Part shown: positions 31,309 through 37,976 of the stretch, piece after piece
How the letters are laid out: each line of letters begins with the position of its first letter
Position numbering within the stretch: position 1 is the stretch's first letter
IMG/VR virus record: IMGVR_UViG_3300046460_000148
Span: 1-64,000 of that record
DNA from: a virus
Reading direction: 5' to 3' (one strand)
Length of the DNA stretch: 64,000 bases
Notes under the pieces: generated by a model
Told to the model about the DNA's origin: nothing
What the model saw: the letters and a program-made list of their open reading frames with translations, nothing else
Databases searched by the model: none
Made by a program: the position numbers and the translations under genes

Positions 31309-32169
31309 ATGGCGGCCAAGAATTTTGACGACTCCCTCGCCAGGGTGCTTGTCCATGAGGGCGGCTATGTCGATGATCCGAGAGACCCCGGCGGGGCGAC
31401 AAATCAGGGGATCACACAGCGGACTTACGACGCCTACCGGCGGAGCAAGAAGCAGTCCACCCGCGCCGTCCGGCTCATGACGCCGCCGGAGCGCAATGAG
31501 ATTTACCGGCGGCAATACTGGGACGCGATCCAAGGCGACACGTTGCCGGACGGAATCGATTATGTCCTGTTTGACGGCGCCGTGCATAGCGGTCCGAAGC
31601 AGTCGATCAAATGGCTACAGCGCGCGCTCGGCCCTTCCTACCACGGGGCGATTGATGGCGTGATCGGCCTCGCCACCTTCGCGGCGCTTGAGTCGACCAC
31701 GAACTATTCCCAGCTCATCGACCGGATTTGCGATCGGCGGCTGGCCTTTCTCCGGACGCTCGACGGCTGGGCGCCCTTCGGCAATGGCTGGAAGCGGCGC
31801 GTGGCCAATGTCCGGGCGGTCGCCAAGGCTGACGCCCTGGATATCAAGAATCCGTCCACGGTCCTTGCGGTTCCGCTGCCCGGCGGCGAGGCAAAGGCGA
31901 GGATAGAGGATGCGCGCCGGGCTCCATCGAAAGCGCCAGGAGACGCGGCAACCGGTGGCGGACTCGGCGGTCTCGGGATTGCCGGCGTCCTGCAAGGGCT
32001 TCAAGAGCAACTGACGCCATACAGCATCGCCGGCGGCTGGATCGGAAGGCTCGTGATTATCCTGGCCGTCAGCGGCGCGCTCCTCGCTATCGGCGGCATC
32101 GCCTACCGCTGGTATGCAAAGCGGCAGCAAGCCAAGATCGCTGACGCACTCGACGTGGTGCCGGCATGA
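31309..32169 (+). CDS. Endolysin: GH108 muramidase with C-terminal membrane segment
   Basis: 286 residues. GH108 N-terminal domain with catalytic Glu17 in VLVHEGGYVDDP, then GGATNQGITQRTYD. A PG_binding_3 region follows (WLQRALGPSYHGAIDGVIG). About residues 175-230 are a linker, and LVIILAVSGALLAIGGIAY (about 245-263) is a hydrophobic helix followed by a basic tail RWYAKRQQ. Cuts the glycan backbone of peptidoglycan. A membrane anchor on an endolysin is unusual and may control when the enzyme is released or flipped. Confidence 0.9.
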   Translation: MAAKNFDDSLARVLVHEGGYVDDPRDPGGATNQGITQRTYDAYRRSKKQSTRAVRLMTPPERNEIYRRQYWDAIQGDTLPDGIDYVLFDGAVHSGPKQSIKWLQRALGPSYHGAIDGVIGLATFAALESTTNYSQLIDRICDRRLAFLRTLDGWAPFGNGWKRRVANVRAVAKADALDIKNPSTVLAVPLPGGEAKARIEDARRAPSKAPGDAATGGGLGGLGIAGVLQGLQEQLTPYSIAGGWIGRLVIILAVSGALLAIGGIAYRWYAKRQQAKIADALDVVPA

Positions 32170-32432
32170 TCGCCTTTCTCGCAAGCCCGATCGGCAAGAT
32201 TGCCGCCGCCATCATCGTCGCCGCCGTGCTGGTCGGCGCCGGCTATATCAAAGGCCGATCAGATGGCAAACTTCGGCAGATGAAAGATACCGTTGAGGCG
32301 GTTCAAAATCGCGGGGTGATTAACAATGAAGTCAGCAAGCTTGGCGATTATAGCCTCTGCCTTCGCCTTGGTGGGATGCCAGACGACTGCGCTCAATTGC
32401 GCGGGATGGACGCCGCCCCCCAAGGCAAATAA
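32166..32432 (+). CDS. Inner-membrane spanin (Rz-like)
   Basis: 88 residues. IGKIAAAIIVAAVLVGAGYI is a single N-terminal membrane helix, then a charged helical periplasmic part. ATGA overlap with the endolysin. The lipoprotein gene below starts inside it in another frame, the standard Rz/Rz1 arrangement. Confidence 0.75.
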   Translation: MIAFLASPIGKIAAAIIVAAVLVGAGYIKGRSDGKLRQMKDTVEAVQNRGVINNEVSKLGDYSLCLRLGGMPDDCAQLRGMDAAPQGK

Positions 32433-32523
32433 CCCGGTTAGGCTGGTCCAGGAGGAACAGGGTCTTTCCCGCTGGATCATCGCGACCGATCAGTTCGGAA
32501 AGAAACAAGGTTGCTGGAAATAG
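32326..32523 (+). CDS. Outer-membrane spanin (Rz1-like lipoprotein)
   Basis: 65 residues; signal peptide MKSASLAIIASAFALVGC with lipobox LVGC, cleavage before Cys18. The mature part is short and has a Pro-rich PPPK segment, as Rz1 proteins do. It overlaps the inner spanin by 107 bases in the +1 frame. The pair links both membranes to fuse them at the end of lysis. Confidence 0.8.
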   Translation: MKSASLAIIASAFALVGCQTTALNCAGWTPPPKANNPVRLVQEEQGLSRWIIATDQFGKKQGCWK

Positions 32524-32534
32524 GAGAAATTCCG

Positions 32535-32738
32535 ATGCCGCTTTTGCAGATGCTTTTGGTGATCTTGGTCATCTCGCTTGTCGCCGCCCTTGTTGCCGGC
32601 GTGCTTGTCTTCCTGATCCGGAGCGCGCCGTTCCTGCCTGAACCTTATAAGGCGTGGGCAGTATGGGCGGTCATCGCGATCGTCGTGCTGGTCGCGCTGA
32701 TCAAGATTTTGCCGGCAGTGGGAGTGCTCACCTATTGA
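32535..32738 (+). CDS. Two-helix membrane protein (Thivi_2564-like), holin candidate
   Basis: 67 residues from ATG 32535 after TAGGAG. Two hydrophobic helices (about 3-28 and 42-62) with the PFLPEPYKAWAVW turn shared by the Thivi_2564 family. Small two-helix protein next to the lysis genes, so a holin is plausible. Confidence 0.65.
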   Translation: MPLLQMLLVILVISLVAALVAGVLVFLIRSAPFLPEPYKAWAVWAVIAIVVLVALIKILPAVGVLTY

Positions 32739-33202
32739 ACGTGCGCGCCGCTCTTGCCATTGGGTGGCGCTGGTTTGCCCACGCATCCGGCGTCATCCTC
32801 ATCGCTGGGTCGATCTCCTATGGCGTCCTGCATCTCTTCTCGATCAATGGCCCGGTCGTTACCGTAACCGAGGGGCCGGGCTACATTTCCACCGTCGTGC
32901 CCTACAGAGGGGTCCTGACCTACAAGATTTCGACCCAGCGCCACGCCTCCTGTCCCGGCCGGGTGATCGCCAGCTTTATCAATCAGGGCGGGGGTCCGCC
33001 GGTTACCGTCCTCTTGAGCCGGCCGATCCTTTCCACCGAGATCAAGCAGACCGACGACGCCACTATTTATCTTCAATTGCCTGAGAACGTTTACCCCGGC
33101 CGCTGGTTATTCCGGTCAGTGGTGGACAGCACATGTCCGACCTATTCGCGCCAGGATGTAACCGCACAGTTCCCGTTCGAGGTGACCCATCATGTGGACT
33201 GA
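32735..33202 (+). CDS. Membrane-anchored hypothetical protein
   Basis: 155 residues from TTG 32735 (overlapping the previous stop) or GTG 32741. One N-terminal hydrophobic helix (WFAHASGVILIAGSISYGVL), then a beta-rich domain with two Cys (HASCPGR and DSTCPTY). Probably periplasmic. Function unknown. Confidence 0.65.
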   Translation: MNVRAALAIGWRWFAHASGVILIAGSISYGVLHLFSINGPVVTVTEGPGYISTVVPYRGVLTYKISTQRHASCPGRVIASFINQGGGPPVTVLLSRPILSTEIKQTDDATIYLQLPENVYPGRWLFRSVVDSTCPTYSRQDVTAQFPFEVTHHVD

Positions 33203-33566
33203 CATCCTCAATTTCTTCGGCGCCGAACGCTATTCACAGCACTCCATCTGCCTGACCAATGACCCCGTCATGATCTTCCTCTATGTGCTGTCTGATCTTT
33301 CCACCTTCGCGTCCTATATCGCGATCGGCATTTCACTGTTGCTCGTAGCGCGCGTTCCGCCCATTCGCGTGAGGCCAACGATGCGGCTCTTGTTCGGGTC
33401 TTTCATCTTCCTATGTGGTCTTTCTCATCTGACGTCCGTGATTACCCTCTTCACCGGCGTCTATCGTCTCGACATCATGATCAGGGCCGCGATGGCCGCC
33501 GTCTCGGTCATGACTGCAATTGCCACGGTCAACGACTACTATCGTCAACAGCCGAAAGTCACGTGA
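33192..33566 (+). CDS. Ethylene-receptor-like (ETR1-type) membrane domain protein
   Basis: 124 residues, about three membrane helices. SDLSTFASYIAI and FGSFIFLCGLSHL align with the ethylene-binding domain of ETR1-type sensors: Asp35, Tyr42, Ile45, Cys75 and His79 fall at the spacing of Asp25, Tyr32, Ile35, Cys65 and His69 of Arabidopsis ETR1, with a constant offset of 10. The last conserved ligand-pocket Pro is Gly here. There is no kinase or other output domain. In the lysis cassette it could be a holin-like pore or a copper- or ligand-responsive timer; both are inference. Confidence 0.6.
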   Translation: MWTDILNFFGAERYSQHSICLTNDPVMIFLYVLSDLSTFASYIAIGISLLLVARVPPIRVRPTMRLLFGSFIFLCGLSHLTSVITLFTGVYRLDIMIRAAMAAVSVMTAIATVNDYYRQQPKVT

Positions 33567-33567
33567 C

Positions 33568-33768
33568 ATGGATGCGGAGGCGTTCTTGACTGTAACGGCG
33601 ACATTCCTCATCGCGATCAGTTGCGGCGTCATTTCATATCGGGTTTCCATCCGGCAAGCGAAACAGGAGATCGACGCGGCCTTCCAGCAGCACATCGAGC
33701 GGATGCACCAAGAGCATCGACTGTTCGTTGAGGAGGTTGTGGAGACGATTGAGCAACCGAAGGACTGA
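33568..33768 (+). CDS. Small single-pass membrane protein
   Basis: 66 residues. MDAEAFLTVTATFLIAISCG gives one membrane helix, then a charged helix (QAKQEIDAAFQQHIERM). Unrecognised; starts one base after the stop of the previous gene. Confidence 0.6.
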   Translation: MDAEAFLTVTATFLIAISCGVISYRVSIRQAKQEIDAAFQQHIERMHQEHRLFVEEVVETIEQPKD

Positions 33769-33771
33769 GAT

Positions 33772-34095
33772 GTGGACCTCGCACCTTTTCTCACGTTCGG
33801 CGGGGCTGTCCTCACTGCTGTGTTCACCGTCATCGGTACTATCTATGTCGCCCGCTCCCGGACGAAGACTGATCTCGGCGCTTCCATCACCAGCGGCTTC
33901 CGGGAACTGACCGATCAGCTCCAGGAGGAGCGCAGCCAATTGAGCGAGATCATCAGGCGGCAGCGGGAGGAGTTGGCGAACGTCGAAAAGCTGACGGACA
34001 GGCAGGAGCACACAATTCGGCGAATGCGCCGCCGTGTGGCCCTCCTGGAAAGCAAACTGGCAAAGGCCGGGCTGGATATACCGCCCGGCGACTGA
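33772..34095 (+). CDS. Membrane-anchored coiled-coil protein
   Basis: 107 residues, GTG start. N-terminal helix LTFGGAVLTAVFTVIGTIYV followed by a predicted coiled coil (ITSGFRELTDQLQEERSQLS). Resembles small membrane proteins of phage lysis modules; last + gene before the opposite-strand macro-like gene. Confidence 0.6.
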   Translation: MDLAPFLTFGGAVLTAVFTVIGTIYVARSRTKTDLGASITSGFRELTDQLQEERSQLSEIIRRQREELANVEKLTDRQEHTIRRMRRRVALLESKLAKAGLDIPPGD

Positions 34096-34958: not shown

Positions 34959-34987
34959 CAAGCCGCTGTATTTCTTAGGGAATTTGA

Positions 34988-35037
34988 TGGTAGCGGAGGA
35001 GGGATTTGAACCCCCGACACAAGGATTATGATTCCCG
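34988..35037 (-). other. attP core: 3' half of a CAU-anticodon tRNA
   Basis: On the minus strand the sequence runs from a tRNA anticodon stem (CGGGA), loop ATCATAA with anticodon CAT, through a T-arm GGGGG-TTCAAAT-CCCTC and acceptor strand to ACCA. Positions 27-76 of the tRNA fit without gaps. No D-arm or 5' acceptor lies upstream, so this is not a whole tRNA. Such half-tRNA copies are attachment cores for tyrosine integrases; the integrase starts about 80 bases away. Confidence 0.85.
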
Positions 35038-35118
35038 TGTCAGCGTTGTTTTTATTAAGTTTTTTGTCATTTTGTGCCAGTGTTGTGCCATCCGTGCCGG
35101 CGCTGTGCCGCTGCCCCT

Positions 35119-36907: not shown

Positions 36908-37144
36908 TTAGTTCAGGAAGTGCTCGCGCAGCTTCATTTTCGAGGCGACCCATCGATTGCCGATTTTTTTGGCCGGCAGCTCCCCGCGTTCAAGCATGTT
37001 GTAAGTGACCTTCTCGCCGCGACCGATCTCGCGGGCGATTTCTTGAGCGCCCCACAGGAGGTCATCGCTGAGACCGGCCGGCGGCGCTGGATCAGGTTTT
37101 AGATGCATCGTCATTGTAACGGCTTCCTTGTTGCTGAACTGCAT
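36908..37144 (-). CDS. Excisionase/HTH-type DNA-binding protein
   Basis: 78 residues from ATG 37144 (MQFSNKEAVTMTMHLKPDP). LLWGAQEIAREIGRGEKVTY and AKKIGNRWVASKMKLREHF form a winged-helix excisionase-like fold. A start two codons into MTMHLK with AAGGAAG is an alternative. A longer frame upstream is made of GGCNN repeat translation (ARLGTAGRGG...) and is rejected. The gene sits between brnT and a repeat array, near int, so excision control is likely. Confidence 0.7.
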   Translation of the reverse strand: MQFSNKEAVTMTMHLKPDPAPPAGLSDDLLWGAQEIAREIGRGEKVTYNMLERGELPAKKIGNRWVASKMKLREHFLN

Positions 37145-37712
37145 TTCACCTTGCTTCGCCGTGCCCTGCTTTGCCCCGCCCCGCCCAGCCGTGCCTAACC
37201 GTGCCACGTCATCGCCGTTCGAAAATTCACAAACCTCAATCCTTGCCCTGCCCTGCTTCGCCGCTCCACGCCGAGCCTTTCCCGGCTGTGCCGCACCTAG
37301 CTCGGCCCTGCCCTGCTTCGAAAATTCAAAAACTCAAATCCTTGCTTTGCCTCGCCTCGCCGGGCCTTGCTCGACCTAACCCCGCCAAGCTACGCCCTGC
37401 TATGCCCCGCCTCGCCTTGCCTCACCTAGCCAATCCTCGCAGTGCCCGGCTTTGCCCGGCCATGCGATGCCCCGCCATATTCAAAATCGACAAACCTCAA
37501 TCCTTGCATTGCCGCTCCGCGCCTTGCCCCGCCATGCATCGCTGAGCCCCGCCTCACCTTGCCTAGCCTAGCCTAGCCGTGCCCTGCCGCGCCTTGCCAT
37601 GCCGTTCGAAAATTCACAAAACGCAATCCTTGCCCTGCCCCGCCACGCCTAGCCTAGCTCTGCCCTGCCGAGCCCCACCTAGCCACGCCAGCTATTTCGA
37701 ATCCGACCTCAA
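37139..37712 (-). repeat. Large GGCNN pentamer array with four embedded 29-nt elements
   Basis: Non-coding 570-bp gap. On the minus strand it reads as hundreds of bases of GGCNN (for example GGCTAGGCTAGGCTAGGC). The pentamers are broken by four near-identical 29-nt elements at 37218-37246, 37317-37345, 37479-37507 and 37605-37633, consensus TTCGAAAATTCAC + AAACCTCAATCCTTGC on the + strand; a partial fifth overlaps the stop of the 37713 gene (37696-37720). Spacings are 99, 162, 126 and 87 bases. Confidence 0.85.
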
Positions 37713-37976
37713 TCACTTGCGGCTCTGCGCTTCCACATCCTTGACGAAGTCGATGACTTCATCCTCCATGATCCCCAGAGCCACCTCCAACCGGTGGCCG
37801 AGTTCCATTCCCTTCCGCAGCACATGCGAGAACGCGATGGCGCCTGAATAGAAGCTCATGCGCATTTCAATGTATTGCTGGGAGTCGGTGGGCAATCCGT
37901 CGTAGCAGGAGGTCACATAGCTTTTCCAAAGCTGCTCGATGAAGTCCGTCCGGCCCGGTTTCTCATTGTCGTTCAT
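37713..37976 (-). CDS. Hypothetical protein, 87 aa
   Basis: MNDNEKPGRTDFIEQLWKSY, helical, with IEMRMSFYSGAIAFSHVLRK in the middle, a pattern seen in short phage proteins of unknown function. Overlaps the upstream gene (ATGA). The start of the repeat array touches its stop codon. Confidence 0.7.
   Translation of the reverse strand: MNDNEKPGRTDFIEQLWKSYVTSCYDGLPTDSQQYIEMRMSFYSGAIAFSHVLRKGMELGHRLEVALGIMEDEVIDFVKDVEAQSRK

Follow-up and report, generated by a model that had tools for sequence, protein, structure and literature searches.

Seven residues of the ethylene receptor ETR1 are needed for ethylene binding: D25, Y32, I35, P36, I62, C65 and H69. C65 and H69 are the copper ligands (PMC6586836), ethylene binding depends on P36 among others (PMC11819568, PMC6586836), and D25 has been proposed to pair with K91, a pair proposed to matter for receptor output (PMC11819568, PMC6586836), to which this helix-3 lysine has been linked (PMC11819568). 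For AzoEtr1 of Azospirillum, ethylene binding has been shown, and its residues D35, C75 and H79 have been equated with D25, C65 and H69 of ETR1 (PMC11819568). A literature search for ethylene-receptor domains in phages found no report. Here we describe a known domain family, ETR1_N, in a new setting, the phage lysis cassette.

Identity and topology of the window ETR protein

The window, the whole stretch of 64,000 nucleotides analysed, comes from a virus contig of 66,194 bases (IMG/VR record IMGVR_UViG_3300046460_000148). An open reading frame at 33192-33566 (+ strand) starts with ATG and encodes a protein of 124 amino acids (the ETR protein), for which an initial annotation had proposed kinship with the ethylene-receptor membrane domain. 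The protein matched Pfam ETR1_N (PF25487) with 65.4 bits (E=5.8e-18), well over the family cut-off of 27. This match rules out a chance resemblance, and the likeness is true homology. An Azospirillum kinase of the AzoEtr1 type (L007) has an ethylene-binding domain to which residues 1-116 of the protein aligned without gaps. An AlphaFold2 model made with 76 sequences (pLDDT 90.3) predicted the three-helix membrane bundle of ETR1_N, with helices at residues 25-51, 62-88 and 91-119, and the charge pattern predicted an N-out/C-in topology. The chain stops five residues after helix 3, with no kinase, GAF, PAS or other output domain. Judged by its sequence, the ETR protein belongs to the ETR1_N family of membrane sensors, of which it is a divergent, stand-alone representative.

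The initial annotation had also described the protein as a membrane domain only, set in a lysis cassette, with D35, Y42, I45, C75 and H79 at a constant offset of +10 from their ETR1 counterparts; these points all held. The five residues lie within SDLSTFASYIAI and FGSFIFLCGLSH, a GH108 endolysin gene and Rz/Rz1-like genes lie upstream, and the offset is supported because D35, C75 and H79 of AzoEtr1 carry the same numbers as in the window protein, while at ETR1 Y32 and I35 it rests on the family alignment. The kinship had been said to fall if profile comparison showed no relation and no homologue conserved Cys-x3-His; the relation was found, and the homologues keep the motif.

A sequence search of solved structures found no ETR membrane domain. 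Neither did a fold search of solved structures with the model, whose best match (E 0.59) was to NuoK-type three-transmembrane (TM) subunits. No PHROGs v4 family matched the ETR protein, nor did any holin family in Pfam or PHROG.

The lysis-cassette module in the window

The genes around ETR are co-oriented (all + strand) in the order endolysin, Rz/Rz1, 155-aa partner, ETR and two TM-coiled-coil proteins. The endolysin (31309-32169) has domain matches to GH108 and PG_binding_3, followed by a C-terminal TM segment with a weak Phage_holin_10 match. It is succeeded by an Rz-like inner-membrane spanin (32166-32432; PHROG 1026, E=0.002; phrog_12535, E=2.6e-12) and by an Rz1-like lipoprotein (32326-32523), which overlaps Rz in another frame and carries the lipobox ALVGC. 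A 67-aa protein with two TM segments (32535-32738), a candidate small holin, is also present in the related contigs L002 and L011 and absent from L003 and L012. The partner gene (32735-33202) starts with TTG, and its 155-aa product, with two conserved cysteines, is predicted to consist of an N-terminal TM segment and a beta-sandwich (AlphaFold2, pLDDT 86). Its stop codon overlaps the ETR start, as it does in L014 and L026. Downstream of ETR, a 66-aa protein (33568-33768) has, by hydropathy, one TM segment and then a cytoplasmic helix, with homologues in L002, L003, L011 and L012. The following 107-aa protein (33772-34095) has one TM segment and a long coiled coil, and its homologues adjoin ETR in L013 and L014 too; it shares this architecture with PHROG 2658, 'hol-like chemotaxis' (E=3.4e-8), a match that does not establish the family's function.

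The 155-aa partner had no match in Pfam, PHROG or NCBIfam, and a partner search with the wide alignment A8 found no conserved stretch. A role of the partner as copper chaperone was considered and found unsupported, its fold matches being generic Ig/FnIII-like ones (TM-score about 0.3-0.46).

Downstream of the TM-coiled-coil genes lie an A1S_2505 phage family gene on the opposite strand and then a tyrosine integrase, so the phage is probably temperate. Beside the integrase gene, and about 1.4 kb from ETR, is a tRNA-like stretch, GGTAGCGGAGGAGGGATTTGAACCCCCGACACAAGGATTATGATTCC (34985-35045), in which ARAGORN found no whole tRNA and which is probably an attachment site. Repetitive, low-complexity Pro/Ala/Cys-rich open reading frames occupy 37128-37851, with similar ones in L002. 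The large tail protein of the window resembles those of Achromobacter phage AchV4 and of 66-69 kb Rhodobacter phages, two neighbouring genes match Rhizobium phages at the DNA level, and we infer that the host is probably an alphaproteobacterium.

Distribution of the module

Close relatives of the window ETR protein (79-92% identity) were found in four viral contigs (L002, L003, L011 and L012) and moderate relatives (51-54% identity) in three more (L013, L014 and L018). Two bacterial genomes, those of Chelatococcus reniformis (L023) and Methylobacterium soli (L026), contain intact copies in prophages; together with the window and the seven viral contigs they make up the ten module copies, while L015, an apparent bacterial contig, was set aside. 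Each of the members tested (L013, L014, L018, L023 and L026) matched ETR1_N over the cut-off, with 39.6-71.2 bits. Partner homologues lie directly upstream of ETR in L002, L003, L011, L012, L014, L018, L023 and L026. The order endolysin, lipoprotein or spanin, partner, ETR, TM-coiled-coil recurs with differing endolysin families (GH108, N-acetylmuramidase, GH19 and phage lysozyme2); the exceptions are L013, which has no 155-aa partner, and L014, where the endolysin lies downstream.

The C. reniformis copy belongs to a contractile-tail prophage, downstream of tape-measure and baseplate genes, and a recognised holin (PF23987, E=2.3e-11) is encoded two genes upstream. The same species has a second, broken module copy (L024:2409-3371). 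In M. soli the ETR copy has repressor, recombinase and integrase genes close by, and its partner gene (L026:2135-2995) is a tandem duplicate of 286 aa whose second copy lacks the conserved cysteines. No further phage-type copies were found in the sampled order, class and genus sets (398, 385 and 111 genomes), so they are rare in cells, and tblastn of the window ETR protein against 50,697 phage records gave no match.

Copper-ligand and signalling residues

The ten module copies were set against a comparison set of 82 ETR domains, kinase-linked or from plasmids. A first genome scan with N-terminal patterns had yielded no loci, and a second with an FI-x2-CG motif yielded 80. C20, Y42, I45, L67, F71, I72, C75, G76, H79, Y91 and S105 are invariant in both groups; the pattern used to find the comparison set and some copies included L67, F68, F71, I72, C75 and G76 but not H79, Y42, I45 and C20, and L013 and L018 came from N-terminal patterns. 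The motif C75-G-L-S-H79 (33414-33428, + strand), whose Cys and His are the predicted Cu(I) ligand pair equivalent to ETR1 C65/H69, is thus unchanged in its ligands in all copies.

Other positions that are near-invariant in the kinases differ in the module. D35 (ETR1 D25; codon 33294-33296, + strand) is kept in the window copy but replaced by G, N or Y in four of the ten copies. P46 (ETR1 P36) is G, S or A in all ten, and the helix-3 lysine (K91 in ETR1, K98 in AzoEtr1) is R, H, V or L and never Lys. W87 is replaced by F or Y, and T101 mostly by M. The window copy therefore keeps six of the seven ethylene-binding residues, with G46 in place of P36, and has R98 in place of the lysine, two substitutions that the initial annotation had missed. 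As the copper-ligand pair is kept and the ethylene and output residues are relaxed or replaced, the phage lineage retained the ligands and dropped the latter. Because of P46G and K98R, ethylene sensing by the phage ETR protein is unlikely.

ETR domains outside the module

With an AzoEtr1-type domain as query, we found ETR domains in Maribacter phages Molly_1-5 and Colly_1. The protein Molly1_65 of Maribacter phage Molly_1 (L152:5935-6804, corresponding to MT732451.1 36990-37859) is annotated as a hypothetical protein, as is that of Colly_1. This 289-aa protein matches ETR1_N with 60.9 bits; Cys and His are retained, and N, S and D replace D35, P46 and K98, respectively. Its gene starts over the stop codon of a TM-coiled-coil gene and lies 3 bases upstream of the amidase gene, and its position beside the amidase is an independent recurrence of the lysis-gene setting. 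We also compared Molly1_64 with the TM-coiled-coil protein of 107 aa in the window, and the similarity was not significant. For the Molly phages, the authors name an amidase as the only lysis gene, with no holin recognised and with TM proteins nearby, and report no integrase (PMC8776804).

A further phage, L016, encodes a 127-aa non-kinase ETR protein (75 bits) with H at D35 and V at K98. At L016:3839-5607 this stand-alone ETR gene is followed by two multi-TM open reading frames and a TM-coiled-coil one, among head and tail genes, and no recognised endolysin adjoins it. In L017 (9872-10930) ETR is fused to STAS instead of a kinase, and the D35 and K98 equivalents are replaced. Full ETR-domain histidine kinases are encoded by the viral contigs L166 (5893-7477) and L161-L163 (5944-7383), in L166 with a response regulator beside apparent head genes; entire two-component systems of the ethylene-receptor type may thus occur in some phages.

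Across nine non-kinase lineages (the module lineages, L016, Molly and the ETR-STAS protein), which are not fully independent, so that Fisher values are indicative only, D35 is kept in two, P46 in two and K98 in none, against 80, 81 and 77 of the 82 comparison domains, respectively.

Selection and phylogeny

Comparison of the ETR gene between the five closest phages gave a dN/dS of about 0.08-0.13 (pairs with dS near 1 or more, at which dS is rough), below the values for the endolysin and the 107-aa gene; between the window and L002, at low divergence, it is 0.27. The ETR gene is under purifying selection, and its product is the most conserved among the cassette proteins compared. In a tree built on few columns, nine of the ten module copies group together (100/89) with L026 unplaced, and 55% of bootstrap trees give all ten a single origin. 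In this tree the phage clade lies far from the kinase copies. The phages probably acquired the domain from bacterial kinases of the ethylene-receptor type and put it to a new use.

Discussion

Copper-ligand residues are kept and kinase-signalling residues lost in related as well as unrelated phages, which suggests reuse of a sensor, probably for lysis control. We tentatively propose that ETR and its partners form a membrane complex that sets or triggers lysis in a copper- or redox-dependent manner. The C75/H79 pair would hold Cu(I) as in ethylene receptors; ETR, the TM/beta-sandwich partner and the two TM-coiled-coil proteins would assemble into a small membrane complex; and this complex, whose state would be set by copper or by oxidation and reduction at the Cys-His site, would act as an antiholin-like holin regulator or as an auxiliary holin. 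That the module binds copper, that its proteins assemble and that they have any part in lysis is what we infer, as is the signal. A lysis-associated complex with a Cu(I) site is suggested by the lysis context, the overlap with the partner gene, the three-TM topology and the Cys-His pair, and a regulator is favoured because a recognised holin coexists with ETR in C. reniformis and because ETR is the most conserved cassette gene compared. Several observations count against such a complex: a gene that closes a late operon may be a moron with no part in lysis, the tRNA-like stretch is close by, the L016 ETR gene has no adjoining recognised endolysin and L013 has no 155-aa partner. Also, the Cys-His pair could be conserved for structure alone. 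The wider claim that at least two unrelated phage families independently recruited the Cu(I)-binding ETR domain, gave up the signalling residues and turned it into a copper/redox-gated lysis control with membrane partners is more doubtful still.

Class I holins (phage lambda S type) are small proteins with three TM segments and N-out/C-in topology, encoded in lysis cassettes. The ETR protein resembles them in size, TM number, predicted orientation and setting. No second multi-TM protein was seen in the cassettes of L003 and L012, and in Molly, where the authors recognised no holin, the ETR gene abuts the amidase gene. Topology and position would also suit the holin derived from a host sensor that the initial annotation suggested. 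That it is itself the holin, replacing a canonical one, is nonetheless unlikely. At least one carrier, the C. reniformis prophage, has a separate holin; the window has the two-TM protein and the endolysin TM segment with its weak holin similarity; and the absence of a holin family match, the buried Cys/His pair and a conservation high for a pore-former all differ from class I holins.

It is similarly improbable that the module is a late-operon moron expressed in lysogens, for example as a superinfection-exclusion or envelope-protection complex. Its place at the operon end near the integrase and the tRNA-like stretch, its small TM proteins with a predicted periplasmic domain and the temperate phages or prophages among its carriers would fit. 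Yet ETR stays tied to lysis genes across differing endolysins and also in the Molly phages, comparison of the module with defence families gave no convincing match, and a search of the ETR region found no promoter-like site (a weak test).

We give little credence to the idea that the protein still senses ethylene or copper and influences a host pathway through partners in trans. The window copy does keep most ethylene-binding residues, and the coiled-coil partners could stand in for the missing output helix, but loss of the P36 equivalent in every module copy, of D35 in some and of the helix-3 lysine throughout argues against it and makes ethylene binding or output, and with them the hydrocarbon-responsive element suggested in the initial annotation, doubtful. 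That the protein is a decoy, forming mixed dimers that poison the ETR kinases of the host, was also suggested there and is scarcely credible: phage protein and host kinases have the domain in common, the copper site lies at the dimer interface in an ETR1 dimer model (PMC6586836) and M. soli has a kinase-type ETR in its genome, but none was found in that of C. reniformis, 244 of 298 genomes sampled in the M. soli group gave no ETR match at E<=1e-8, phage and kinase copies lie far apart in the tree, and the module recurs among lysis genes and keeps its own overlapping partner gene.

If the wider claim of independent recruitment is true, the copper/redox-gated control would represent a novel type of lysis regulator and a naturally occurring split of copper binding from receptor output. 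The non-kinase ETR copies offer a natural test of which residues of ethylene receptors hold copper and which signal, and the link to lysis genes in two lineages makes metal-dependent lysis control testable, a cultured phage-host pair being available in Molly_1 on Maribacter forsetii DSM18668.

Among described systems, Molly1_65 is like the window protein an ETR1_N member that adjoins an endolysin and a TM-coiled-coil gene and has lost the D, P and K residues with C and H kept; it differs in its extra C-terminal region, in belonging to a Bacteroidota phage and in that no 155-aa partner was seen. With the membrane domain of ETR1, Synechocystis SynEtr1 and AzoEtr1, the window copy shares three TM helices, C-x3-H and the Y, I and D residues, as well as the N-terminal H-x2-C typical of bacterial ethylene-receptor domains. 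Unlike these receptors, it has no kinase, PAS or GAF domain, carries G for P36 and R for K91, and lies in a phage lysis cassette, where the module copies usually have the same partner gene.
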